Below are positions 6,749-61,637 of a DNA stretch of 64,000 nt, piece by piece. Source of the DNA: Alicyclobacillus sp. SO9. Its GTDB lineage: Bacteria > Bacillota > Bacilli > Alicyclobacillales > Alicyclobacillaceae. The notes under the pieces are model-generated. The model saw nothing but the letters and a program-made list of their open reading frames with translations, did not search any database and had not been told where the DNA came from. Each line of letters starts with the position of its first letter. The first letter of the stretch is position 1. Both the position numbers and the translations under genes were made by a program. Location: contig NZ_CP066339.1 of the NCBI RefSeq assembly GCF_016406125.1, positions 186,001 to 250,000 on the forward strand, read 5' to 3'.

Positions 6749-6759
6749 CGTCAAGTCGG

Positions 6760-6879
6760 CTGAGGTCCGACTGGCTGAGGCAGAAGTGGCTGAGGTAGAA
6801 GTGACTGAGGTCCGACTGGCTGAGGCAGAAGTGGCTGAGGTAGAAGTGACTGAGGTAGAAGTGACTGAGGTAGAAGTGA
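6760..6879. repeat. 15-bp tandem array downstream of qoxD
   Basis: Eight 15-bp units starting CTGAGG. Units 1-3 and 4-6 form a 45-bp higher-order repeat, and the last three units are identical. Units contain TGA and often TAG. Spurious reading frames on both strands arise from this periodicity. No other role is visible. Confidence 0.9.
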
Positions 6880-7000
6880 CTCGAACGGTACCAGCGATGT
6901 CCCGCCTCGCCAGCCGGAGTGAGATACAGGCTCTGAGGCAGACATAGATGCGGTTGAAGCGTAGACCGCAACGAAAAGCGGAGTAGGAACGATAGAAGAG

Positions 7001-7066
7001 CGGAGAACGAACGGAGAACGAACGGAGAACGAACGGAGAACGAACGGAGAACGAACGGAGAACGAA
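7001..7066. repeat. 11-bp tandem array
   Basis: Six exact copies of CGGAGAACGAA between qoxD and its terminator. The unit is not a multiple of three and the region has no plausible reading frame. Confidence 0.92.
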
Positions 7067-7106
7067 CGAGCGCGGGCTCTACTGAAACGCGAGTGAATCT
7101 TATGAC

Positions 7107-7150: not shown

Positions 7151-7253
7151 AAGTGGCCACGTGTACGCCGGGCAGCAATGGTGGCAGTGAGGCAGCATTC
7201 TTCCCTGATGTGGAAAAAATCAGAGTGGAAGGTGGGGGGCTGGGTGCCAGGAG

Positions 7254-7585
7254 GGGAGCGGTGAGTTGGTTAGTGATCCGAAAGATCACTATCAGTCGCG
7301 GTGACGTGGGATAGGGATCCCAATGATCATTAATGCTACCGCACCCAAGACATTAGTGTCATAAATGGACACTAATGTGGGGAGCGCCGGGGTGGGGGGT
7401 GGGAGATAGGGAGCAGCGGGATCCTTATTGCGGACGGCCATTGGCCATAGGGATCGCAGAGATCACTATTCTTTGGCCGGGCTCGTGATAGGGAGCGAAA
7501 GGATCACTAACAAGCGCTACCGCCGACACACTCGCACGCTGACAACCGTGACCGCCGACAAGCTCCTTCGCCAACAACCGTGACC
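7254..7585. repeat. Long direct repeat, left copy (with element A)
   Basis: About 330 bp nearly identical to 8352-8690; only a handful of differences are visible (one G indel and a few substitutions). The two copies are in the same orientation and flank the lipoprotein pseudogene. Each contains a complete six-dyad element. Confidence 0.9.
7271..7510 (+). repeat. Six-dyad element, copy A (forward)
   Basis: Six inverted-repeat sites centred at 7281, 7322, 7364, 7417, 7458 and 7499, with steps of 41, 42, 53, 41 and 41 bp. Slot 1 is TAGTGATC-CGAAA-GATCACTA. Slot 3 is CATTAGTGTC and GACACTAATG around ATAAATG. Slots 2, 4, 5 and 6 are variants on TAGKGATC half-sites. Defined here as forward orientation. 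It lies between the 3' ends of qoxD and the pseudogene. Confidence 0.88.
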
Positions 7586-7650
7586 GCCAACCAACGCGCC
7601 CGCCGACACACTCGCACGCCGACAACCGTGGTCGCCGACACACTCGCTTG
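7527..7650. repeat. Imperfect direct repeats after element A
   Basis: Repeats of the type CGCCGACACACTCGCACGC followed by GACAACCGTG, two to three imperfect copies. A shorter version follows element B. No coding potential is supported. Confidence 0.6.
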
Positions 7651-7818
7651 GGAGCCAACGAGCTATGGAGGTTGTCGTTTTAGTGTTCAGATTCGATTTC
7701 CATTATGATGCTCCAAAATATGATGCTCCAGAATTTCAACGGGTTTCATGAGCATCATTGTATATGTTTGTTTCCTATTGAAGGCAGTGGGCTTACGCGA
7801 TTGTTCTATGCAGGGAAA

Positions 7819-8232
7819 CTACTTTGAAGGCTTTAACGTGAGTGTTTCGTGTTTTCCACGGTAATTCACGGTTAGTTGATACTTGTCCCGCGCATAGGTT
7901 TTGAAATTGACTGTCCCCACCAGGAAACCAATTGTGTTGCCCTGTGTCTTGGTATCCATGGCTTGGAGGTTCCCTCGTAAGGTTCCATCTCTGCTTTTCA
8001 AGAGAATGCTGATATCAGCAAGGGGTGGCAGTTGTCGACCTTTGCACGTCATGTAAACCCAGTTGATTTTTTTCTTCTCATACAGATCAGGGTTGTAGAC
8101 ATACTCGGCCTTCCAATTCGGAGCATATCCCACAAATTTGATGTTGTGTTGCGCCGGGATCTGCCTCTGAACAGTCCCTCAAGCCGGTAGCAGCAATACT
8201 GCCGCAGAACACAGTAGAAGTCTTATTCTCAT
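7819..8232 (-). pseudogene. Small lipoprotein gene with TGA at the lipobox Cys
   Basis: Reading from an ATG at 8230-8232, with a GGGGGAG ribosome site just upstream, gives a classic signal peptide MRIRLLLCSAAVLLLPA, then TGA, then in the same frame GTVQRQIPAQHNIKFVGYAP and an intact 104-residue remainder to a stop at 7819. The TGA sits exactly where the lipobox cysteine (L-P-A-C-G) is expected, one base from TGC or TGT. The body has no family I recognise; it looks like a small beta-rich secreted domain. A GTG at 8131-8133 could start a short cytosolic product, but without a good ribosome site. The simplest reading is a recent nonsense mutation; recoding or a sequencing error are alternatives. 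Confidence 0.75.
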
Positions 8233-8351
8233 CTGCTCCCCCCTGTGAACGAGTTCATGTACAATGTAGTGTTTTTGAACGTGAATCTCAACGAGTCAGA
8301 ATGATTCCACTTATCCTTTTCGTCGATCACGCTATTCTCACCAGCCTCGCT

Positions 8352-8690
8352 GCCAAGCGGTGGAGCGGTGAGTTGGTTAGTGATCCGAAAGATCACTATC
8401 AGTCGCGGTGACGTGGGATAGGGATCCCAATGATCATTAATGCTACCGCACCCAAGACATTAGTGTCATAAATGGACACTAATGTGGGGAGCGCCGGGGT
8501 GGGGGTGGGAGATAGGGAGCAGCGGGATCCTTATTGCGGAGGGCCATTGGCCATAGGGATCGCAGCGATCACTATTCTTTGGCCGGGCTCGTGATAGGGA
8601 GCGAAAGGATCACTAACAAGCGCTACCGCCAACACACTCGCACGCTGACAACCGTGACCGCCGACAAGCTCCTTCGCCAACAACCGTGAT
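8352..8690. repeat. Long direct repeat, right copy (with element B)
   Basis: Partner of 7254-7585 in the same orientation, about 1.1 kb apart. The copies diverge after the shared GCCAACAACCGTGA segment. The pair would allow deletion of the intervening pseudogene by homologous recombination. Confidence 0.9.
8378..8616 (+). repeat. Six-dyad element, copy B (forward)
   Basis: Dyad centres at 8388, 8429, 8471, 8523, 8564 and 8605 (steps 41, 42, 52, 41, 41). Almost identical to copy A; one G fewer in the slot 3-4 interval accounts for 52 instead of 53. It lies upstream of fabF, between divergent genes, the only copy in such a position. Confidence 0.88.
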
Positions 8691-8908
8691 CGCCGGACAA
8701 CCGTGATCACTAACAAGCACGATTGGAAACAAGCGCAACTAGATTGAAAGCCGGCATCAGCATTTTTAGTGCACATGGTCAAACGACCTAAAACATCCCA
8801 TAATTGGGCTGTGCAACTGTCCGGATGAGGGGTTCGTGTCCGATTTATGCTATGGTAAGAAGGAACTATTTTATACATATCGTTGGCGTCTCGAAAGGGG
8901 AATGAAGC

Positions 8909-20773: not shown

Positions 20774-20896
20774 TCCTTTCCAAGGCACAAATGCAGCAAA
20801 ATCGAGTTAGGAAATCCGCGTAAATAGGGGCAAGCAGCAGAACGGTTGGCAGTGGAGGCTCCCAGTTCAAGCGAGGTCGTTCCGATACCGTTTGTT

Positions 20897-21135
20897 AATG
20901 ATCCTTTTGCGCACTATCAACGTCCTCGCCAAAAAATAGTGATCTTTCCAGTCACTATTCCAGTGGACAGTCTCAAATAGGGATCCCATTGATCCCTATC
21001 CCCCACAGTCCCAGGTAGACCTCCCGATATTAGTGTCCATTCATGACACTAATATCTTGGACAACTGGCATTAGGGATCATTGCGATCACAATCACATCA
21101 TCACTTCGGCAATAGGGATCTTTCGGGTCACTAAC
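20897..21135 (-). repeat. Six-dyad element, copy C (reverse)
   Basis: Dyad centres at 20906, 20947, 20988, 21041, 21082 and 21123 (steps 41, 41, 53, 41, 41), i.e. the element A architecture read on the minus strand. Slot 3 is a perfect 12-bp stem, GATATTAGTGTC and GACACTAATATC, around CATTCAT, two added base pairs compared with copy A. It lies between the MFS gene and the IS. Confidence 0.88.
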
Positions 21136-21340
21136 CGCCTCAGTTACACCCACTACTAGAGCACTCCGTTCACAAATCCGCCACAAATGGGTACCTGAAG
21201 TGGTGGGATGTGACCAGGCTGTGACGAGACTGTGACCAGATTGTGGCGAGGGGTGGTCCCATGAAGCTGGTCAGCACAAATAGCGATCCCTGGGATGCTT
21301 ATACGGGATTGGGGCTATTCGCCCGCACAAATAAGCTCCT

Positions 21341-31166: not shown

Positions 31167-31192
31167 GAACTGCAAGCCACGCGCGATAAGCA

Positions 31193-31290
31193 CGAAGAAG
31201 AAGGTACGAAGAAGAAGGTACGAAGAAGAAGGTACGAAGAAGAAGGTACGAAGAAGAAGGTACGAAGAAGAAGGTACGAAGAAGAAGGTA
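31193..31290. repeat. 14-bp tandem array after the acetamidase gene
   Basis: Seven exact copies of CGAAGAAGAAGGTA starting 27 bases after the stop. A hairpin ACCGGTTGT-TCTG-ACAACTGGT (31301-31322) follows. Frames through it encode only Lys/Glu or Arg/Tyr-rich repeats and are not genes. Confidence 0.92.
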
Positions 31291-31371
31291 CGAAGAAGGC
31301 ACCGGTTGTTCTGACAACTGGTACCTTAGCACCTGAATCTGAATTATCACACCATAGGAGGAGACGAAGGT

Positions 31372-32953: not shown

Positions 32954-33060
32954 ATTTGAGACGGCCCATTTAAATAGTGATCGCAAGGATCCCTATTCAT
33001 TGGCGAGCATGGTGATAGGGATCAATGGGATCCTTAAGCGCCCGCCGCGCCCCCGAGCCC
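32954..33060 (+). repeat. Six-dyad element, partial copy H (slots 5-6 only)
   Basis: Dyad centres at 32985 and 33026 (41-bp step). The 107-bp segment matches 33411-33517 with about three differences seen, and starts at the point just after slot 4 in copy I. It is therefore a direct duplication of the right-hand third of copy I or a truncated element. Confidence 0.85.
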
Positions 33061-33254
33061 CCGAGTCCCAGCCGCCGCGAACGAACTCAGGTAGACTTTG
33101 GAGCCAACATCAGCGTCTCAAAAGTCAGCCCATTCTACGGACTGAACTGTCTTTCAATGAATAAAGGAACTTTTCTACTTATCCTCTTCGTTCAATACCG
33201 TTTATCACGGGGGCTTCTCTGCCGGAGCTGCCAGGAGCGGGGTTGCGGTCCGGT

Positions 33255-33495
33255 TAGTGCCTGGAAAGATCCCTATTGGCCGAAGGGGATCGCGATTGTG
33301 ATCCCAATGATCCCTATCGTCCCCGCGCCCACGACAGTAGTGATCCGAATGATCACTACTGTCGGGAGAGCCGCCCCGGTACGTGGGGGATAAGGAGCAA
33401 CGGGATCCCTATTTGAGACGGCCCATTTAAATAGTGATCGCAACGATCCCTATCCATTGGTGAGCATGGTGATAGGGATCAATGGGATCCTTAAG
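33255..33495 (+). repeat. Six-dyad element, copy I (forward)
   Basis: Dyad centres at 33265, 33306, 33348, 33401, 33442 and 33483 (steps 41, 42, 53, 41, 41). Slot 3 is GACAGTAGTGATC-CGAAT-GATCACTACTGTC, a perfect 13-bp stem that uses GATC arms and a 5-base spacer instead of the GTC arms and 7-base spacer of copy A, while the 21-bp core length is kept. It lies between convergent SRPBCC and SEC-C genes. The stretch 33061-33254 shows nothing else. Confidence 0.88.
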
Positions 33496-38219: not shown

Positions 38220-38375
38220 GAGATCGTGCGCAAATCCTCGGTAGTGTCAAACCATCTTCTTGTCAGTAGACACAAGTAGAAATACATGGCCTTGGTTGGG
38301 ATTATTTAGAACGTTGCGCTTGGGGCTATGTTGAAGATTGTATCTAGTTTAGCAATCCCACTTAAAACTAAATTC

Positions 38376-38490
38376 TTTGTGCTGAGTTCCCGAACAGGGA
38401 AGCGGGGGAACCATTATAGGGGTGAGTTCAGATGAATTCTGATAAGGCCGCTCTGAGCCTGAACCCGACAGCTAACTTCGTAAGCACAGC
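38376..38490 (+). ncRNA. c-di-AMP riboswitch (ydaO-yuaA type)
   Basis: The conserved blocks of the ydaO aptamer are visible: AGCGGGGGAACC at 38401-38412, GGGGTGAG about eight bases on, and CCCGACAGCTAACTTCGTAAGC ending near 38486 (given in part here as GACAGCTAACTTCGTAAGC). GTGCT (38379-38383) and AGCAC (38483-38487) form the closing stem. In known cases c-di-AMP binding turns off potassium and osmolyte uptake and wall-remodelling genes. The downstream gene encodes a betaine-type binding protein, which fits. Confidence 0.9.
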
Positions 38491-38691
38491 AGAGGATGAG
38501 ACATATGGATGATGGAAGGGTGAGTCTCCACACCTGGCAGGTCATGGTGTGAGATGATAAGCCGTTCTATAAGTACGTTGTGTCGGTATGATGCCAACGC
38601 ACTTCGTCAAGCCATGTCTCAGTGATAAGGATTCTGTGTTAAAACATTTCCCTTATAGATTTGCTGTGGTTCAAAAGTTAGGATAGATTTT
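38491..38691 (+). promoter_or_regulatory. Structured linker between aptamer and terminator
   Basis: About 200 bases with further pairing: TGAGACAT (about 38497) with ATGTCTCA (about 38613), CACACC with GGTGTG (about 38530-38551), and GTTG with CAAC near 38580-38601. It may form the antiterminator or an extra peripheral domain. No coding frame. Confidence 0.45.
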
Positions 38692-38808: not shown

Positions 38809-39744
38809 ATGAATAAGAAAAAATTTGCAATGTCATTGTCGGCGGTTGCTGCACTTGGCGCGATTTTAACCGGATGCGGGACGGCAAACAGCACGTCTGG
38901 CGGGGGAAACAGCAGCGGTAACACTTCGAGTCAAAACTCAACTGCGACCGGTGCCTCAAAAGGCAGCAAGACGATTACAATTGGCTGGATTCCTTGGACA
39001 GAAGACGTAGCCAACACTCACCTGTGGAAAGTCATTCTTGAACAAAAGGGTTACAAAGTGAATACGCCAGAGTTGGATGTTGGACCGTTGCTTCTCGGTA
39101 TGTCTAAAAACAGCGTGAATTTCTTTATGGACCTGTGGATGCCCGCAGAGCAGCCGAATGTGAAAAAGTATCAGTCGAAATTGGTCGCATTGAAAAATTG
39201 GTACAAAGGTGAGTCCAGCACGGGCATTGCCGTACCGAGTTACATGAAGAACATCAATACGCCGGCAGACCTGAACAAACACGCCAAGGAATTTCAAAAT
39301 AGAATTGTCGGCATCGATCCCGGTGCTATTGAAGAAAAACACACCCACCAGTTTGTAAAGACTTATCACTTGACGAATATTCATGTGCAGGACAGCAGTA
39401 CAACAGCCATGATAACTGCAGTTAAACGTGCCTACGATCAGCACAAGCCAGTGGCCGTAGTCATGTGGACACCAATGTGGCCCTTTACCAAATACCATCT
39501 CAAATATCTGAAGGATCCCAAACACATTGTTGCAGAGAAGACGCCAAACAAGTTACTGATTGAAGCCAATAAGACCTGGGTGAAAAACAATCCGAAGGTG
39601 GCTGGCTGGTTGAAGAACTTCAGCTTGACAGCAAAGCAGCTTTCGTCACTTGAAGAAGATATGAGAAACAGTTCCAGCAAAGATGCTGCAGCGAAAAAAT
39701 GGATTAAGGCTAATCAGTCTCTGGTGGACAGCTGGCTCAAGTAA
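38809..39744 (+). CDS. Glycine betaine-type ABC substrate-binding lipoprotein
   Basis: A 311-residue lipoprotein with lipobox AILTGC, a Ser/Gly/Thr linker and an OpuAC-type domain (TITIGWIPWTEDVANTHLWKVIL.., VDVG-like region LDVGPLLLGM, FFMDLWMPAEQP, GIDPGA). The Trp-rich positions would form the quaternary-ammonium cage. It should deliver betaine or a related osmolyte to an ABC permease, but no permease or ATPase gene is adjacent, so partners must be elsewhere. Control by the c-di-AMP riboswitch upstream fits osmotic regulation. GGGGG is 7-8 bases before the ATG. A strong terminator follows the gene. Confidence 0.88.
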   Translation: MNKKKFAMSLSAVAALGAILTGCGTANSTSGGGNSSGNTSSQNSTATGASKGSKTITIGWIPWTEDVANTHLWKVILEQKGYKVNTPELDVGPLLLGMSKNSVNFFMDLWMPAEQPNVKKYQSKLVALKNWYKGESSTGIAVPSYMKNINTPADLNKHAKEFQNRIVGIDPGAIEEKHTHQFVKTYHLTNIHVQDSSTTAMITAVKRAYDQHKPVAVVMWTPMWPFTKYHLKYLKDPKHIVAEKTPNKLLIEANKTWVKNNPKVAGWLKNFSLTAKQLSSLEEDMRNSSSKDAAAKKWIKANQSLVDSWLK

Positions 39745-41830: not shown

Positions 41831-41885
41831 CGGCCTGGTTTCGATTGTGAAATAGAGGTGGCGTACGCTTTTGGGGGCGTACGCT

Positions 41886-42126
41886 TAAGGATCCTTTTGC
41901 TCCCTATTACGATGCGGGCCAGCCAATAGTGATCGATGCGATCACTATCACCAGCCGGCTTCTACAATAGGGATCCCGTTGCGCCTTATTACCTACGCTC
42001 CACCTTGCCCCTCTCCGCGGTAGTGATCATTTCGCTCCCTAATGTCTCGGGTGGGGTGGCAATAGGGATCATTGGGATCACAATTGCATCGCTCTTTGCC
42101 AAATAGGGATCATTCGAGGCACTAAT
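41886..42126 (-). repeat. Six-dyad element, copy D (reverse)
   Basis: Dyad centres at 41896, 41937, 41978, 42031, 42073 and 42114 (steps 41, 41, 53, 42, 41). Slot 3 is degraded (TAGTGATC-ATTTC-GCTCCCTA) but its position is kept. Confidence 0.88.
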
Positions 42127-42387
42127 CGGCTCGCTGACGGAGCCGGGGCCCGCCCTTCAGGCACTAATCGGCTCGCCGACGGAGCCCGGGCCCATCCCGT
42201 CAGCCATTCCGTCAGCATCAGACAGCGCGATCGACGAAGAAGATAAGCGGAAAAGTTCCCTTTATACGACTTATACGACCGGATTCCCATTGCACACCAT
42301 AATATGATGAATTTGGTTCAAAATAGGATGGTACCACTCATGCAGGATCCCGGTTCAAACCACTGCGTTCGCAATCATCCACTCGCT

Positions 42388-42627
42388 TAAGGATCCTTTT
42401 GCTCCCTATTACGATGCGCACCAAGCGATTAGGATCATCGCGATCACTATCCGGATAGGCCGCCTGAAATAGGGATCCCGTCGCTCACTATTACCAAGGT
42501 CCCACTGTGCGCCTCCCATATTAGTGCCCATTTATGACACTAAGTTCTGGCGTAAGTTGCATTAGGGATCATCGCGATCACAATCGCATCAGCACTTCGA
42601 CGAATAGGGATCTTTCCAGTCACTAAC
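42388..42627 (-). repeat. Six-dyad element, copy E (reverse)
   Basis: Dyad centres at 42398, 42439, 42480, 42532, 42573 and 42615 (steps 41, 41, 52, 41, 42). Slot 3 is of the GTC/7-base-spacer type as in copy A (read on the minus strand). Same orientation as copy D, 284 bp from it between facing slots. Confidence 0.88.
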
Positions 42628-42793
42628 TGCCTTACCGCCTTACCGCCTTACTGCTCCACTGCCCCAGCCTGGCAGCGTCATCAGCATCCAGTTGAACCAC
42701 TGCACTAACCCCCGTTTGTTGCATTACACGGATATTGAAGCAGAAATGAACCTCAACCCAAACAGAATTATCAGTTCTTATGTGGTAGACGAT

Positions 42794-43306
42794 TTACTTC
42801 TGATATTCCATTAAGTTCCGTGATAGGAGTCTCACCCGAATAATAATTGCCACACTCCTTACCAAAACCATGGTGGCTGTCAGAAAAATAAAGGATGGGG
42901 CAATAATATTCGGAATACTTATCTCATGCTTAATCGCAAAATGCATCGTCTGAAGCCCGTGGTGAGTCATCCACTCAATTGGGATAATACGCATAAGGAA
43001 GGCGAACAATAGAACTGCAACGCCCCCCATCCCAAGGTGTAGGTATATTCCCCCATCATCTTGAACTATTTTCGTTAATATAGACCAAATCACTCCAAGG
43101 ATTGCACCCATCAGGATAAAGGCGATTAGGGCAATGAGATTATTTCCGTTTGTTGGAATGCCCTTGATATACTTAAATGCAAAGTACGACAACACGGCTA
43201 TTGGAATCAAGAATCGTCTTGTAATACTGTACTTCTTTCTACCGTACGACGCGGTTACGAGAACTACGAAAAGAACAACCATCTCAATCCATGTTGAAGT
43301 GGTCAC
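42794..43306 (-). CDS. Polytopic membrane protein, CcdC/DUF1453-like
   Basis: A 170-residue protein with about five TM helices (WIEMVVLFVVLVTASYG first, then FLIPIAVLSYFAFKYI, LIALIAFILMGAILGVIW and so on). Topology and the basic loop after helix 1 resemble CcdC/DUF1453 proteins, but similarity is loose. The GTG at 43304-43306 is 8 bases after AGGAGG; the longer frame to 43594 runs through the divergent promoter region. It is divergent from the NarL-type kinase gene and shares its upstream dyad, so the two-component system may regulate it. Confidence 0.65.
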   Translation of the reverse strand: MTTSTWIEMVVLFVVLVTASYGRKKYSITRRFLIPIAVLSYFAFKYIKGIPTNGNNLIALIAFILMGAILGVIWSILTKIVQDDGGIYLHLGMGGVAVLLFAFLMRIIPIEWMTHHGLQTMHFAIKHEISIPNIIAPSFIFLTATMVLVRSVAIIIRVRLLSRNLMEYQK

Positions 43307-43436
43307 GAGAGGTACCTCCTTTATTGTGGGAGCTGTGATAGCGTCCTCGTACAGAAGTGTAACCCGCACGACCTGTCGAAAACCTGTGGCATCGGTCACG
43401 AATGTGGGCCTAGTTCTGGTGCTAGTTAACGTGACC

Positions 43437-43471
43437 AGAGTCATGGGTCTGTGGGGCAAACCCATGACTCT
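43437..43471. promoter_or_regulatory. Perfect 12-bp dyad in a divergent promoter region
   Basis: AGAGTCATGGGT (43437-43448) and ACCCATGACTCT (43460-43471) around an 11-base spacer, 78 bases upstream of the kinase gene and 131 upstream of the membrane protein gene. Likely an operator for the divergent pair, or a terminator-like hairpin without T-tract. Confidence 0.55.
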
Positions 43472-43548
43472 AAACACTGGCATGCGGGAAGAAAAGTGAG
43501 ATATGATGTAGAAAAGTAGGTACATCTCTCGAAATCGGTGGGTATACC

Positions 43549-44718
43549 ATGACAAGAAAGCAAGAACAGACCATTGATACGCGACCACTCTCATTTGGAT
43601 GGTTCCTTCGAGGTGCTGCTTATTGTGTTGGCGGTGCCGGATATCTCTTCGGACTCTTTTTGGAACGACATACGCTATTTAGCCTTTTGCTTCTTACAGT
43701 AACCTATGGTAGCTGGATTTTGATTTATCATGCCGGAAGAAGGCGCTCCCATCCCGCGTGGGTCATTGCCTTGTCGTGTCTAGCTTGTGCCTCTTTATTC
43801 GTCCCCACCCAGGCCAGCAATGTCTATTGGCTCCCGATTTTGCCATCAATGACCGCTTGCGTGACGGCGAAAGCTAAACCACGATTGTTCGTTCTACTGA
43901 CTGCAGGTACACTCTGGCTCGCCACAGCCATCGCGTTGACCCTTGTAACCGGGCAGTTGGATTTTGGCAGCCAAGTGATTCTCCTAATCTCCTTTGCCTC
44001 CAACTGGGGCTTGGCTGCGTCCATTAGCAAACTCATGGCGGCCCATGTACAACTTCACGAGTATAGCGCTCAAATTGAGGAACTCTCGGTCGTCCGCGAG
44101 CGCAATCGGATTGCCCGTGATATCCATGATACTCTCGGCCACTCGCTGACATCGCTAGCCGTCCAGCTCGAAACAGCGATGCAGCTCGAAGTGCGCGGCG
44201 ATAGCCGTCTGCATGAGGAATTGCTGGCGGCGCGTCAGGTGACAAAAGCTTGTCTACGAGAAGTCCGTCACTCCGTCGAAGCACTCCGACCCGGAGATGT
44301 CGACGCGCGCTCACTGCACGAGCAATTGCGTAGTCTGGTGTTACAATTTGAAACCACCTGCCCTCAGACGAAGATCACCCTGGATTTCGATGAGTATACG
44401 CACCCTGCGGATCCAGAAGTGGGAGTGGCACTGTATCGCTGTGCGCAGGAGGCACTGACGAATATTCGCAAACATGCGAACGCAACGAAGGTGCTGCTGC
44501 GTCTTTCAACGAGTGGTGGACGAAAGGATCATGTAGAACTGACCGTACTGGACAATGGCCGCGGGTCCACGCCTACGGACGAACACTCAGTGTCCGGGTT
44601 CGGATTGCTGGGCATGGGTGAGCGCATTACACCGCTAGGCGGCACATTGCGGGCCGGTCCTGAATCCGGACACGGATGGCGCGTCGAAGCGGTACTACCA
44701 CGGAACATTCGAGAGTAA
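43549..44718 (+). CDS. NarL-type sensor histidine kinase (HisKA_3)
   Basis: A 389-residue kinase of the LiaS/DesK branch: four to five TM helices in the first 165 residues with almost no extracytoplasmic loop, then the dimerisation box RNRIARDIHDTLGHSLTSLA with the phospho-His, and a HATPase_c domain (QEALTNIRKHANA, DNGRGS, GFGLLGMGERI). Kinases of this build often sense membrane state or antibiotics through the membrane itself. It pairs with the regulator starting 62 bases downstream. The stimulus is unknown. Confidence 0.9.
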   Translation: MTRKQEQTIDTRPLSFGWFLRGAAYCVGGAGYLFGLFLERHTLFSLLLLTVTYGSWILIYHAGRRRSHPAWVIALSCLACASLFVPTQASNVYWLPILPSMTACVTAKAKPRLFVLLTAGTLWLATAIALTLVTGQLDFGSQVILLISFASNWGLAASISKLMAAHVQLHEYSAQIEELSVVRERNRIARDIHDTLGHSLTSLAVQLETAMQLEVRGDSRLHEELLAARQVTKACLREVRHSVEALRPGDVDARSLHEQLRSLVLQFETTCPQTKITLDFDEYTHPADPEVGVALYRCAQEALTNIRKHANATKVLLRLSTSGGRKDHVELTVLDNGRGSTPTDEHSVSGFGLLGMGERITPLGGTLRAGPESGHGWRVEAVLPRNIRE

Positions 44719-44780
44719 GCAGCTGTCATTGCAAAAGAGTACACAAAGGAGTACACATAGATTTGGAGGAAGGTCTAGTC

Positions 44781-45476
44781 GTGGAAGAGCCTATCCGCGT
44801 GATGATTGTCGATGATCAGCGCCTGCTGCGCGAAGGTTTTCGCAAGCTGATTGAGCTGGAACCCAATCTGGAGGTGAGCGGCGTCGCTGGGAACGGCGAG
44901 GAAGCACTGAGAACGGTCGAAAACCTCCAAGCAGATGGAATCGCCCCTGATGTTGTACTGATGGATGTGCGCATGCCGCATATGGATGGTATTGCCGCGA
45001 CACGGGTCTTCAGAGAGCGTTGGCCCGAGATCCGCATTGTTATCCTTACTACATTTGACGATAGGGAACTTATCCAGGCTGGTTTACAAGCTGGAGCGCT
45101 GGGCTATGTGCTTAAAGATATCACTGCGGACCAGCTCGCAACGGCGATTCAAGTGGTGGCACAAGGCCAGGTCCTCCTGCATCCTAGCGTCGCAAGCAAG
45201 GTTGTTGCCTCGTTTTCTTCTACATCCACCGAGTCTACGGTAACCAATGCGGTCACCGGGGAATCCGTCGATGGGAGCGAAGTAGCTTCACTGACGGAAC
45301 GCGAACGGGAGATTCTTGCCTTGCTGGCAGGTGGAGCCTCCAATCGCGAGATCAGTGAGAATCTCTACATAGCGAGTGGTACCGTTAAGAATCACATGAG
45401 TAATATCCTGAGTAAGTTAGGTGTGCGCGATCGGACACAGGCAGCCTTGAAAGCAAAGGAACTTGGCTTATTGTAA
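44781..45476 (+). CDS. NarL/LuxR-family response regulator
   Basis: A 231-residue regulator: receiver domain with DDQ, phospho-acceptor Asp in VVLMDVRMPHMDG, Thr in ILTTFDD and Lys in GYVLKD; then a Ser/Thr/Val-rich linker and a LuxR HTH (LTEREREILALLAGGASNREISENLYIASGTVKNH). The GTG at 44781 starts at the first receiver strand (EEPIRVMIVDD) with GGAGGAAGG upstream; a longer frame to 44676 overlaps the kinase gene and is rejected. Cognate partner of the kinase before it. Confidence 0.93.
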   Translation: MEEPIRVMIVDDQRLLREGFRKLIELEPNLEVSGVAGNGEEALRTVENLQADGIAPDVVLMDVRMPHMDGIAATRVFRERWPEIRIVILTTFDDRELIQAGLQAGALGYVLKDITADQLATAIQVVAQGQVLLHPSVASKVVASFSSTSTESTVTNAVTGESVDGSEVASLTEREREILALLAGGASNREISENLYIASGTVKNHMSNILSKLGVRDRTQAALKAKELGLL

Positions 45477-45492
45477 CAAAAACTCGTTGACA

Positions 45493-45520
45493 AAGGAGAC
45501 CTTCTGCCGAAAGGCTCCTT
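45493..45520 (+). terminator. Hairpin after the response regulator
   Basis: Imperfect stem AAAGGAGACCTT with AAAGGCTCCTT soon after the stop; no strong T-tract. Weak terminator candidate. Confidence 0.4.
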
Positions 45521-45594
45521 ACGTTCAATGTGGCAATCACTTTCTGGGGAGCTCGCTTAAGGGGGGGTTCGCTTAAGGGGTGGGGGAGTTCGCT

Positions 45595-45835
45595 TAAGGA
45601 TCCTTTTGCTCCCTATTACGATGCGGGCCAGCCAATAGTGATCGATGCGATCACTATCACCAGCCGGCTTCTACAATAGGGATCCCGTTGCGCCTTATTA
45701 CCTACGCTCCACCTTGCCCCTCTCTGCGGTAGTGATCATTTCGCTCCCTAATGTCTCGGGTGGGGTGGCAATAGGGATCATTGGGATCACAATTGCATCG
45801 CCCTTTGCCAAATAGGGATCATTCGAGGCACTAAT
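45595..45835 (-). repeat. Six-dyad element, copy F (reverse)
   Basis: Dyad centres at 45605, 45646, 45687, 45740, 45782 and 45823 (steps 41, 41, 53, 42, 41), the same steps as copy D. Confidence 0.88.
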
Positions 45836-46096
45836 CGGCTCGACGACGGAGCCGGGGCCCGCCCTTCAGGCACTAACTGGCTCGCTGCCGGAGCCCGGGC
45901 CCATCCCGGCAGCCATTCCGTCAGCATCAGACGGCGCGATCGACGAAGAAGATACGCGGTAAAGTTCCTTTTATACGACTTATACCACCGGATTCCCATT
46001 GCGCACCATAATATGATGAATTTGGTTCAAAATAAGATGGTACCACTCATGCAGGATCCCGGTTCAAACCACTGCGTTCGCAATCATCCACTCGCT

Positions 46097-46339
46097 TAAG
46101 GATCCTTTTGCTCCCTATCACGATGCTCACCAAGGGATTAGGATCATCGCGATCACTATTCCAATAGGCCGCCTGAAAATAGGGATCCCGTCGCTCACTA
46201 TTCCCAACGTCCCACCGTGTGCATCCCCATGTTAGTGCCCATTTATGACACTAAGGTTTTGCGCAAGTTGCATTAGGGATCATTGCGATCACTATCGCAT
46301 TATCACTTCGACGAATAGGGATCTTTCCAGGCACTAACT
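46097..46339 (-). repeat. Six-dyad element, copy G (reverse)
   Basis: Dyad centres at 46107, 46148, 46190, 46243, 46284 and 46326 (steps 41, 42, 53, 41, 42). It differs from copy E in several spacer and linker positions, yet the spacing is retained. Confidence 0.88.
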
Positions 46340-46483
46340 GCCGCACTGCCTTACTGCTCCACTGACCCAGCCTGGCAGCGTCATCAGCATCCAGTTGAGC
46401 CACTCACTGGCTTAAAATGGAGAGATGACGCTATGATTCTTCTCTAAGGAACATCGGAAACAGCCTTGTGTTCGGTAACTCAC

Positions 46484-59544: not shown

Positions 59545-61305
59545 CTACACGCGGAATTTGTTGACCATTTCCTGCAACTGTTCGGCCATCGTTGTGAGGG
59601 AAGCTGCAGAGGCCGTAATCTCTTCCGTAGCAGCGAGTTGTTCCTCGGCCGAGGCGGAGACGGTTTGCATTCCAGCAGCAGTTTCTTCGGAGATTCGTGT
59701 TACAGCCTGAGTCGCCTTTATTAATTCTTCTGTCCCTGAGTTGAGCTGTTTGGCTGCTGTCGACACACTCTGAATTTGACTGCTGACAGATTGTACGGAC
59801 TCCTGAATCTCTTCAAAGGAACGTCCTGCCGTATTAACGGCGTCCAATCCTTCAGAGACTCGCTCTGTCGTCGATTGCGTTGCAGACACGGCTTGTGTTG
59901 TTCCTTCGTGAATTTGGGAAATCAATGTCGCGATTTGTTCTGCAGAGTGGGCTGATTGTTCCGCCAGCTTGCGGACTTCGTCGGCCACGACCGCAAACCC
60001 GCGCCCGCTTTCGCCCGCTCTGGCAGCTTCAATCGCAGCATTCAGTGCGAGTAGATTCGTTTGCCTGGAAATGTTGGAGATAGCGGTCAGCATTTCATCA
60101 ATTTCGTCGGACTTCGATCCCAATTGTTCAATGACACCTGCCAATTCACCGACGGTTGTACTGATATCCTGCATTTTCCGCACCGCAGTTTGAACAGACA
60201 CGTTGCCTGAAACGGTCTTGTCCTTCGCCGTTAAAGCCGTTGCAGACACGGTGTTGGCTGTGCCCGCAATTTGTTCTACACCCTGCACCATCTGGACAAT
60301 CGACTGTTTGCCTTGTTCCACGCTCTCGGACTGTGTCTGAGCACCGTCTGCAGCCTGTTGGATAGTAGCCGTAATCTGTTCCGTCGCACGCCCGCTTTCC
60401 TCGGAACTGGCAGATAGTTCTTCAGCAGAGGCAGCAACCTGCTGTGTAGTCTGGGTAATGTGGGAAATCAGGTTCTTTAGATTTTCTGTCATGCTGTTAA
60501 TACCATTTGCAAGTCGGCTGGTTTCATCTCTGTTCTTCACTACCAGAGGCTCAACCGTCAAATCCCCTCCAGCAACTTTCCGGACCTGTCTTTCAACGGC
60601 AAGAATCGGTTTTGTAATGCTGTACGCCATGAGAACGGTAAGGAGAATGCCGGCAATAATTGAGATGCCAAGGGTAATAAGGATGTATCTTAGTATCGAG
60701 TTCGCTCCTGAATTGTAGTCACTTTCATACGATCCCGCTGCGACATTCCAGCCCCAGCCAGCCGGATCCTTGGCAACATATACAATTTTCTTGGCGTCCT
60801 TCTTGGAGTTGGGAAGCGGCCATATGTATTGAATGAATCCACCGCCTGACTGTCCCACTTTGACAATTTTCTGTCCAATCATGACGCCGTCCGGTGTCTT
60901 TGCGCTCCAGATGCTTGTTCCCTCAATGGAGGGGTGAGCCACTTCAACACCTTGATTGTTGACAATGAAGAAATATCCGTTTTTCCCCAAGTCATAATTA
61001 TGATTAATTGGACGATGGCCGTTTGCTTCTTTCTTTCCCAGAATCATTCGTTTCACTTCTGTTTGTGCTGTGGGCAGTGTCAAGTCCCCGGCTTGAACCT
61101 CTTTGTTTAATTCTTTAATGGTTCCGTTGACAAGGTTGACTTCGGATTTTAGCGCCGCCTTGCTCTGAACATTCAGTTGATTTGTGGCAACCCTCCAGCC
61201 AATCAAACCAGTAACAAGGCTTGGTACAATCAGCAGGATGAGCGAAAAGCCAATCAGCTTTTGTCGCAGTGACCTGATTTGAAACAGCACTTTAAGTCTG
61301 TGCAT
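59545..61305 (-). CDS. Methyl-accepting chemotaxis protein with Cache sensor
   Basis: A 586-residue chemoreceptor: TM1 ([20 protein letters not shown]), an extracytoplasmic sCache-type domain ([18 protein letters not shown].., [28 protein letters not shown]), TM2 ([14 protein letters not shown]), a HAMP domain, and the coiled-coil signalling domain with hairpin tip [20 protein letters not shown]. sCache receptors bind small organic acids or similar ligands. ATG 61305 is chosen because it begins at the basic n-region; the frame extends to 61365 without a ribosome site. GTG 61308 is equally possible. Confidence 0.92.
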
Positions 61306-61637
61306 CACCTTTGATTTCCCCCATTCTGTGATGTAGCAAGTGGCAAAAAACCAGTCAAAGGACAATCAAAAAACAATAAAAAAACGCCCGGAGCAGGCGC
61401 ACTTTTGACACTGTGGCGGCCAGGCTGTCATAGGTCGAAGTTGACCCGTAGACCCTGTGGCTTTGCGCCCCAATGTTTCCACTGGTATGCCCTTTGCACA
61501 TAAAATTGTCCACATGACATCATGTCGGAATTCATTGACCTTGTCAACCGTTTCTTTTCTCCATCAAAACCTCATATAATCATGTTTGTGGGTACTGTTC
61601 TGGCACCGCAGAGAAATCCCATCAAGGAGGTACACGA
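61306..61637. other. Divergent upstream region, few signals
   Basis: Contains a short CGCC-cggagca-GGCG hairpin flanked by an A-rich tract (about 61370-61400), which on the minus strand resembles a weak leader terminator for the chemoreceptor. GGAGG just before 61638 belongs to the phosphoesterase. No other element could be placed. Confidence 0.4.

Follow-up and report, generated by a model that had tools for sequence, protein, structure and literature searches.

Dispersed arrays of six regularly spaced palindromes in the chromosome of Alicyclobacillus sp. SO9

Direct repeats and the elements that compose them

A 64-kb stretch of DNA from Alicyclobacillus sp. SO9 (contig NZ_CP066339.1, positions 186,001–250,000; hereafter the window) carries two long direct repeats at 41.8–46.4 kb, each built from two copies of an intergenic, palindrome-rich element that is the subject of this work. 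Coordinates are those of the window unless C1, the 5.2-Mb chromosome contig, is named. Two long repeats in the same orientation, with two elements each, had been described in the original prediction, and comparison of the window with itself (blastn) bore this out: 41872–42706 and 45581–46408 align on the same strand over 837 columns with 93.7% identity. Both consist of two array elements, an inter-element spacer and a tail. The left repeat (+) contains elements A1 (41885–42127, +; palindromes starting at 41886, 41927, 41968, 42021, 42063 and 42104) and B1 (42387–42629, +), and the right repeat (+) contains A2 (45594–45836, +; palindromes starting at 45595, 45636, 45677, 45730, 45772 and 45813), which is 99% identical to A1, and B2 (46096–46340, +).

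Within each repeat the first and second elements are 71–72% identical. Between the repeats identity is uneven, being 99.2% in the first element, 94.5% in the spacer, 89.6% in the second element and 84.2% in the tail, and when the 54 differences were shuffled 5,000 times, a run as long as the observed 131 identical bp arose in 0.24% of cases. This pattern would be consistent with gene conversion between the two repeats; selection on the palindromes could also explain the clustering of the differences.

Three open reading frames (ORFs) lie between the repeats. The minus-strand ORF at 42794–43594 encodes a predicted membrane protein of 266 amino acids (membrane character judged by eye), and is followed on the plus strand by a NarL-type sensor histidine kinase (43549–44718; HisKA_3 and HATPase_c) and a LuxR/NarL-type response regulator (44676–45476; Response_reg and GerE), whose true start is probably further in. 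The gene content proposed earlier was confirmed at the level of Pfam domains for the kinase/regulator pair; the putative membrane protein had no Pfam match. No recombinase or transposase was found between the two repeats in a Pfam scan of the ORFs.

The element itself is about 245 bp long and carries six 21-bp imperfect palindromes of the form TARKGAKC-N5-GMTCMYTA, composed of half-sites of approximately TARKGAKC around a 5-bp centre. When the palindromes were located without any spacing rule, the gaps between them were 41–42, 41–43, 51–53, 41–42 and 41–42 bp in most complete elements. This listing provides the independent support for a fit of 98 elements in which 4 bp either way were permitted per gap and which gave mean gaps of 41.0, 41.6, 52.9, 41.6 and 41.2 bp. 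The resulting span of 218.3 bp corresponds to 21 turns at 10.4 bp per turn, with steps of 4, 4, 5, 4 and 4 helical turns.

Copy number and distribution

Throughout the genome, 513 palindromes were found at ≤2 mismatches, versus one for the reversed-pattern control, and 167 exact ones versus none. A profile made from element copies and run on 50 stretches of C1 and on the window gave 116 element hits, of which 98 are close to full length, distributed over 57 loci. The profiled stretches contain 480 of the 513 palindromes, so that about 6% of the sites are without position; 478 of the 480 located palindromes fall inside elements. Loci with a single element (22) and with two (20) predominate, and three, four and five elements are present at 8, 5 and 2 loci, respectively. 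None of the 35 multi-element loci showed mixed orientation. The element was not found on the second contig (C2, 90 kb).

The loci are unevenly placed along the chromosome. C1 starts with dnaA (C1:1) and ends with the ParA-Noc-rsmG-mnmG region, and the 0.7 Mb immediately to the right of dnaA harbour 24 of the 57 loci (p=1e-7). In the window, besides A1–B2, minus-strand elements are located at 7269–7511 and 8376–8617, a single plus-strand element at 20894–21137, and a further minus-strand element at 33251–33494 near a fragment on the same strand (32954–33037). The stretches around the first two (7245–7588 and 8351–8694) are 97.7% identical in the self-comparison.

Other genomes were searched at several levels, comprising 40 relatives (BLAST), 58 other genomes of the order, 397 of the class, 84,980 species genomes and viral contigs. 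One element copy had 54 BLAST matches in its own genome and none in the 40 relatives, and exact palindrome forms were absent from all 58 other genomes of the order. A relaxed palindrome occurred 381 times in this genome and at most once in each of the 397 others of the class (10 genomes with one match); the reversed-palindrome control gave single matches in 16 genomes of the 398. Among the species genomes, which possibly do not include that of the strain itself, one palindrome form, present in 42 copies in the first 532 kb here, gave four single hits, and five single palindrome matches were found in viral contigs. None of the loci fetched from the class, species-genome and viral searches was an array (5 of the 10 class hits were inspected). 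The element family is lineage-specific in the genomes searched, and literature searches, judged by titles and the beginnings of abstracts, returned no description of such elements.

Conserved half-sites and the spread of the elements

Between loci, the half-sites are 85.5% identical and the spacers 53.1% (1,182 locus pairs; the other 358 of 1,540 had too little spacer of equal length to be compared). In 182 of these pairs the spacers are less than 35% identical (mean 30.7%), and the half-sites are nevertheless 79.8% identical. Since the half-sites stay alike where the spacers have diverged, the sites and their spacing have been kept while the intervening sequence drifted.

Copies within a locus share on average 93.0% identity, and copies from different loci 69.1%. 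Some distant copies are almost the same (98.3% for chromosomal positions 577850 and 4233647; 97.9% for 41672 and 5103702), and some distant loci share blocks of element plus spacer at 88–98%, the matches ending near array edges at varying points. Judged from these extents of homology, the elements would have multiplied through local tandem duplication and through blocks of element plus spacer being copied from one locus to another far away, most likely via recombination; such a route appears to explain the observations better than does a transposon whose ends are fixed.

The most serious alternative, on present evidence somewhat unlikely, is that the arrays are selfish non-coding repeats resembling satellites or miniature inverted-repeat transposable elements (MITEs), whose copies are made by a recombinase or transposase that acts in trans by binding the palindromes, and which bring no benefit to the host. 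They are indeed multi-copy and intergenic, avoid coding DNA, and include the near-identical distant copies and transferred tandem blocks just described. However, they lack fixed ends, homologous blocks starting and stopping at different points of the spacer, and no gene family recurs beside them: the commonest Pfam family was found in 4 of the 100 flanking proteins scanned (of 117; the 17 omitted include transposases inserted in arrays). In addition, the half-sites and their spacing have outlasted the spacers to a greater degree than expected of a dead MITE, although a live trans-acting factor could still account for this. A search for a recurrent flanking family found none at many loci, leaving aside the IS110 element present in three copies, broad families of ATPases and transporters, and ORFs that the repeats themselves create.

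The arrays are also targets of insertion sequences. At least three copies of a 1.69-kb IS110-family element (99.8–99.9% identical; sought only in the stretches chosen around arrays) are present, at C1 501820–503532 (L091), 4234115–4235827 (L068) and 4968751–4970461 (L073). The element carries the DEDD_Tnp_IS110 and Transposase_20 domains (PF01548, PF02371). Each copy interrupts palindrome 2: two lie within the right half, and the third, in the opposite orientation, within the left half. The junctions of the three copies are compatible with a CT core. Another palindrome 2 has an element of the Mutator family at its edge. The IS110-family element would suit the study of its guide RNA and target. 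Comparison of 7-mers of its non-coding end with the target gave two matches per strand, where about three were expected by our own estimate, and these were judged to be due to chance.

Are the repeats the ends of a cassette?

According to the original prediction, the repeats bound a 3.7-kb cassette with the two-component system, which could be excised or amplified through them. Part of this stands: the repeats are long, similar and direct, their identity is patchy, and the kinase/regulator pair is accessory. A near-orthologue of the kinase (69%) is present in only one of the 58 other genomes of the order (G002), where it stands beside its regulator (82%) among neighbours different from those found here. 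That locus contains neither array elements nor a homologue of the 266-residue predicted membrane protein. A second segment with a putative accessory gene, 7269–8617, consists of the ORF 7819–8133 (−) between near-identical elements, and this ORF had no match in the 58 genomes. The role of the repeats as boundaries is not supported, because they comprise 4 of the 116 elements of a genome-wide family at 57 loci, mostly without genes between tandem copies. The pair thus appears to be accessory and yet not tied to the repeats, since the single other genome that has it lacks the elements and differs in the neighbouring genes. We consider a cassette quite improbable and read the two-component genes as bystanders that happen to stand between two loci belonging to the element family; a gene flanked by direct repeats need not be part of a cassette.

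Duplex DNA versus RNA, and gene context

To analyze arm covariation, each left-arm base was compared with its mirror base in 89 elements (120 symmetric pairs). At most mirror positions the frequency of matches does not exceed that predicted for independent columns; six of the 120 pairs reached z≥3 and five z≤−3. At the mid-arm pair d=7, Watson-Crick pairs make up 49, 60, 72, 56, 33 and 10% in units 1–6, the mismatches being G:A and T:C. Such a pattern would be expected if each subunit of a dimer recognised its own half-site, and is not that of a hairpin; it speaks for dimeric proteins bound to duplex DNA rather than for RNA or hairpins. We give very little credence to an RNA folded into six hairpins or to single-stranded DNA hairpins of the REP/IS200 type (REP, repetitive extragenic palindromic). 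Every palindrome could fold and a few symmetric pairs do covary, but the arms vary independently at most positions, Rfam gave no match at the elements, the genome contains no Y1_Tnp transposase, and in tandem gene contexts the strand of the element does not track that of the genes (8 same, 15 opposite, p=0.21).

The arrays sit between genes. As counted with a simple ORF caller, the neighbouring genes converge in 28 of 60 gaps with arrays versus 37 of 194 other gaps (p=4e-5), while divergent gaps (9 of 60 versus 47 of 194) are not significantly rarer. Dimeric palindromes look operator-like, but operators of a transcription factor controlling the flanking genes are the least credible of the explanations considered: promoter-type positions are avoided, the 28 convergent gaps holding no promoter of either neighbour, no function is shared among the flanking genes (first 25 of 215 families), and the location of 478 of 480 sites within arrays leaves no regulon of single operators.

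Proposed function of the arrays

Taken together, these features point to dispersed protein-binding arrays with a layout like that of the plasmid centromere sopC, spread by duplication and recombination, a reading that we favour while giving it only about an even chance as a whole. Its first component is the firmest: the arrays very probably bind protein on duplex DNA. Six dimers of one sequence-specific protein would be bound along a single face of the helix, where they could assemble into a common complex. The likeliest role of such a complex would be chromosome organisation or segregation, or the anchoring of a nucleoprotein complex, as at plasmid centromere arrays. Provided that the arrays do bind protein in this way, we judge the case for a chromosome-organising role to be evenly balanced.

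Several observations weigh against this interpretation. Concerning the element itself, in most elements unit 4 is a poor match to the half-site, with on average 3.4 mismatches in 16 positions, and unit 6 a moderate one (1.8), and a regular 41-bp spacing can also be obtained by duplicating a 41-bp unit; a divergent array with extra 41-bp units is indeed present at C1 697.7–698.2 kb (L118). The spacers are non-random overall (mean identity 53%), and a few mirror pairs covary, namely d=1 of unit 2 (z=5.1) and, in unit 4, d=5 (z=3.2) and d=11 (z=4.8). The occurrence of the family in one genome means that conservation across species cannot show selection on a phenotype. Concerning distribution, 0.7 Mb to the left of dnaA contain 8 of the 57 loci, which is the chance level (p=0.85). 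This one-sided density weakens an origin-centred role, as a centromere-like role predicts symmetry. Moreover, 33 of the 513 palindrome sites are unplaced, and the listing of located sites leans to low coordinates. Finally, no binding protein could be assigned to the palindromes. The genome contains two ParB-type proteins (PF02195), both encoded where C1 ends, in the ParA-Noc-rsmG-mnmG region, and the genome search with this family revealed no cognate ParB-type binder with a linked ParA beyond the chromosomal Spo0J and Noc. Noc aligns with the solved Noc proteins 7ng0 and 7nfu along the whole helix-turn-helix region. With only the origin-linked ParB pair present and Noc aligned in this way, a ParB or Noc binder is not indicated.

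An origin-centred enrichment (32 of the 57 loci within 0.7 Mb on either side of dnaA, p=4e-6) proved to be an effect of the right arm only and was not used as support for a centromere. A second divergent array, at C1 1217.5–1218.0 kb (L119), also has extra 41-bp units and lies near palindromes with a different half-site; together, the L118 and L119 variants suggest related site families.

The strongest form of the favoured reading is a chromosomal architecture system, in which about 100 sopC-like blocks of six dimer sites, helically phased and under selection, would be bound by a lineage-specific non-ParB protein and would gather dispersed loci, chiefly those in the right-arm 0.7 Mb next to dnaA, into nucleoprotein assemblies. 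We consider this version unlikely. Should the arrays bind a protein in the way their layout suggests, several hundred natural dimer sites, helically phased and grouped in sixes, would be present on one chromosome and limited to one lineage, which would offer a natural system for studying how bacteria gain and multiply centromere-like or nucleoid-organising sites.

Other features of the window

A cyclic di-AMP riboswitch (RF00379, 87.7 bits) was revealed at 38370–38501 (+), upstream of a gene for a glycine-betaine type binding protein at 38809, and a cyclic di-GMP-I riboswitch (RF01051, 68.6 bits) at 61412–61501 (−), just beyond the ORF 59545–61365 (−). Short tandem repeats, perfect or near-perfect in the self-comparison, are located at 6753–6881, 6979–7068 and 31192–31298.

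Comparison with known systems

The closest known layout is that of sopC, the parS of the F plasmid, which in the account given by PMC6238139, where parS is also described in general, consists of a 43-bp unit repeated twelve times in tandem, with inverted repeats of 16 bp to which SopB/ParB binds. As far as that account goes, both comprise dyad sites in tandem, at intervals of about four helical turns, on the same face and suited to the loading of a multimeric protein, the latter being a prediction for the arrays. Unlike sopC, each block described here comprises six palindromes of 21 bp, which differ from the sopC sites in sequence, with the central step widened to 53 bp; about 100 such blocks are dispersed over the chromosome instead of forming one locus, and no cognate ParB was found.

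REP sequences and bacterial interspersed mosaic elements (BIMEs), as presented in PMC2817692 and PMC1525189, resemble the arrays in being intergenic, palindromic, clustered, present in more than 100 copies and targeted by insertion sequences. The arrays differ from them in the absence of a Y1/RAYT-type transposase (PF01797, no matches in this genome; control positive in 5 of 14 genomes), in units that do not alternate in orientation, in the lack of general compensatory changes between arms, and in the fixed six-unit layout. Membership in the REP/BIME group was rejected on the transposase and on arm covariation.

In Bacillus-type chromosomes, Noc-binding and parS sites are palindromes for chromosome-organising dimers that are spread over the chromosome. 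The arrays share with them the dispersal of palindromic sites, but are of other sequence and length, are organized in six units and have a one-sided density; Noc and Spo0J of this strain appear canonical.

Insertion of IS621/IS110 elements into REP sequences is known (PMC11208160; PMC1525189). Within what these sources describe, the present case is similar, with an IS110-family element in a repeated palindrome and junctions compatible with a CT core. It differs in its target, which is palindrome 2 of the array family, and the array palindromes thus add a REP-like target for IS110.

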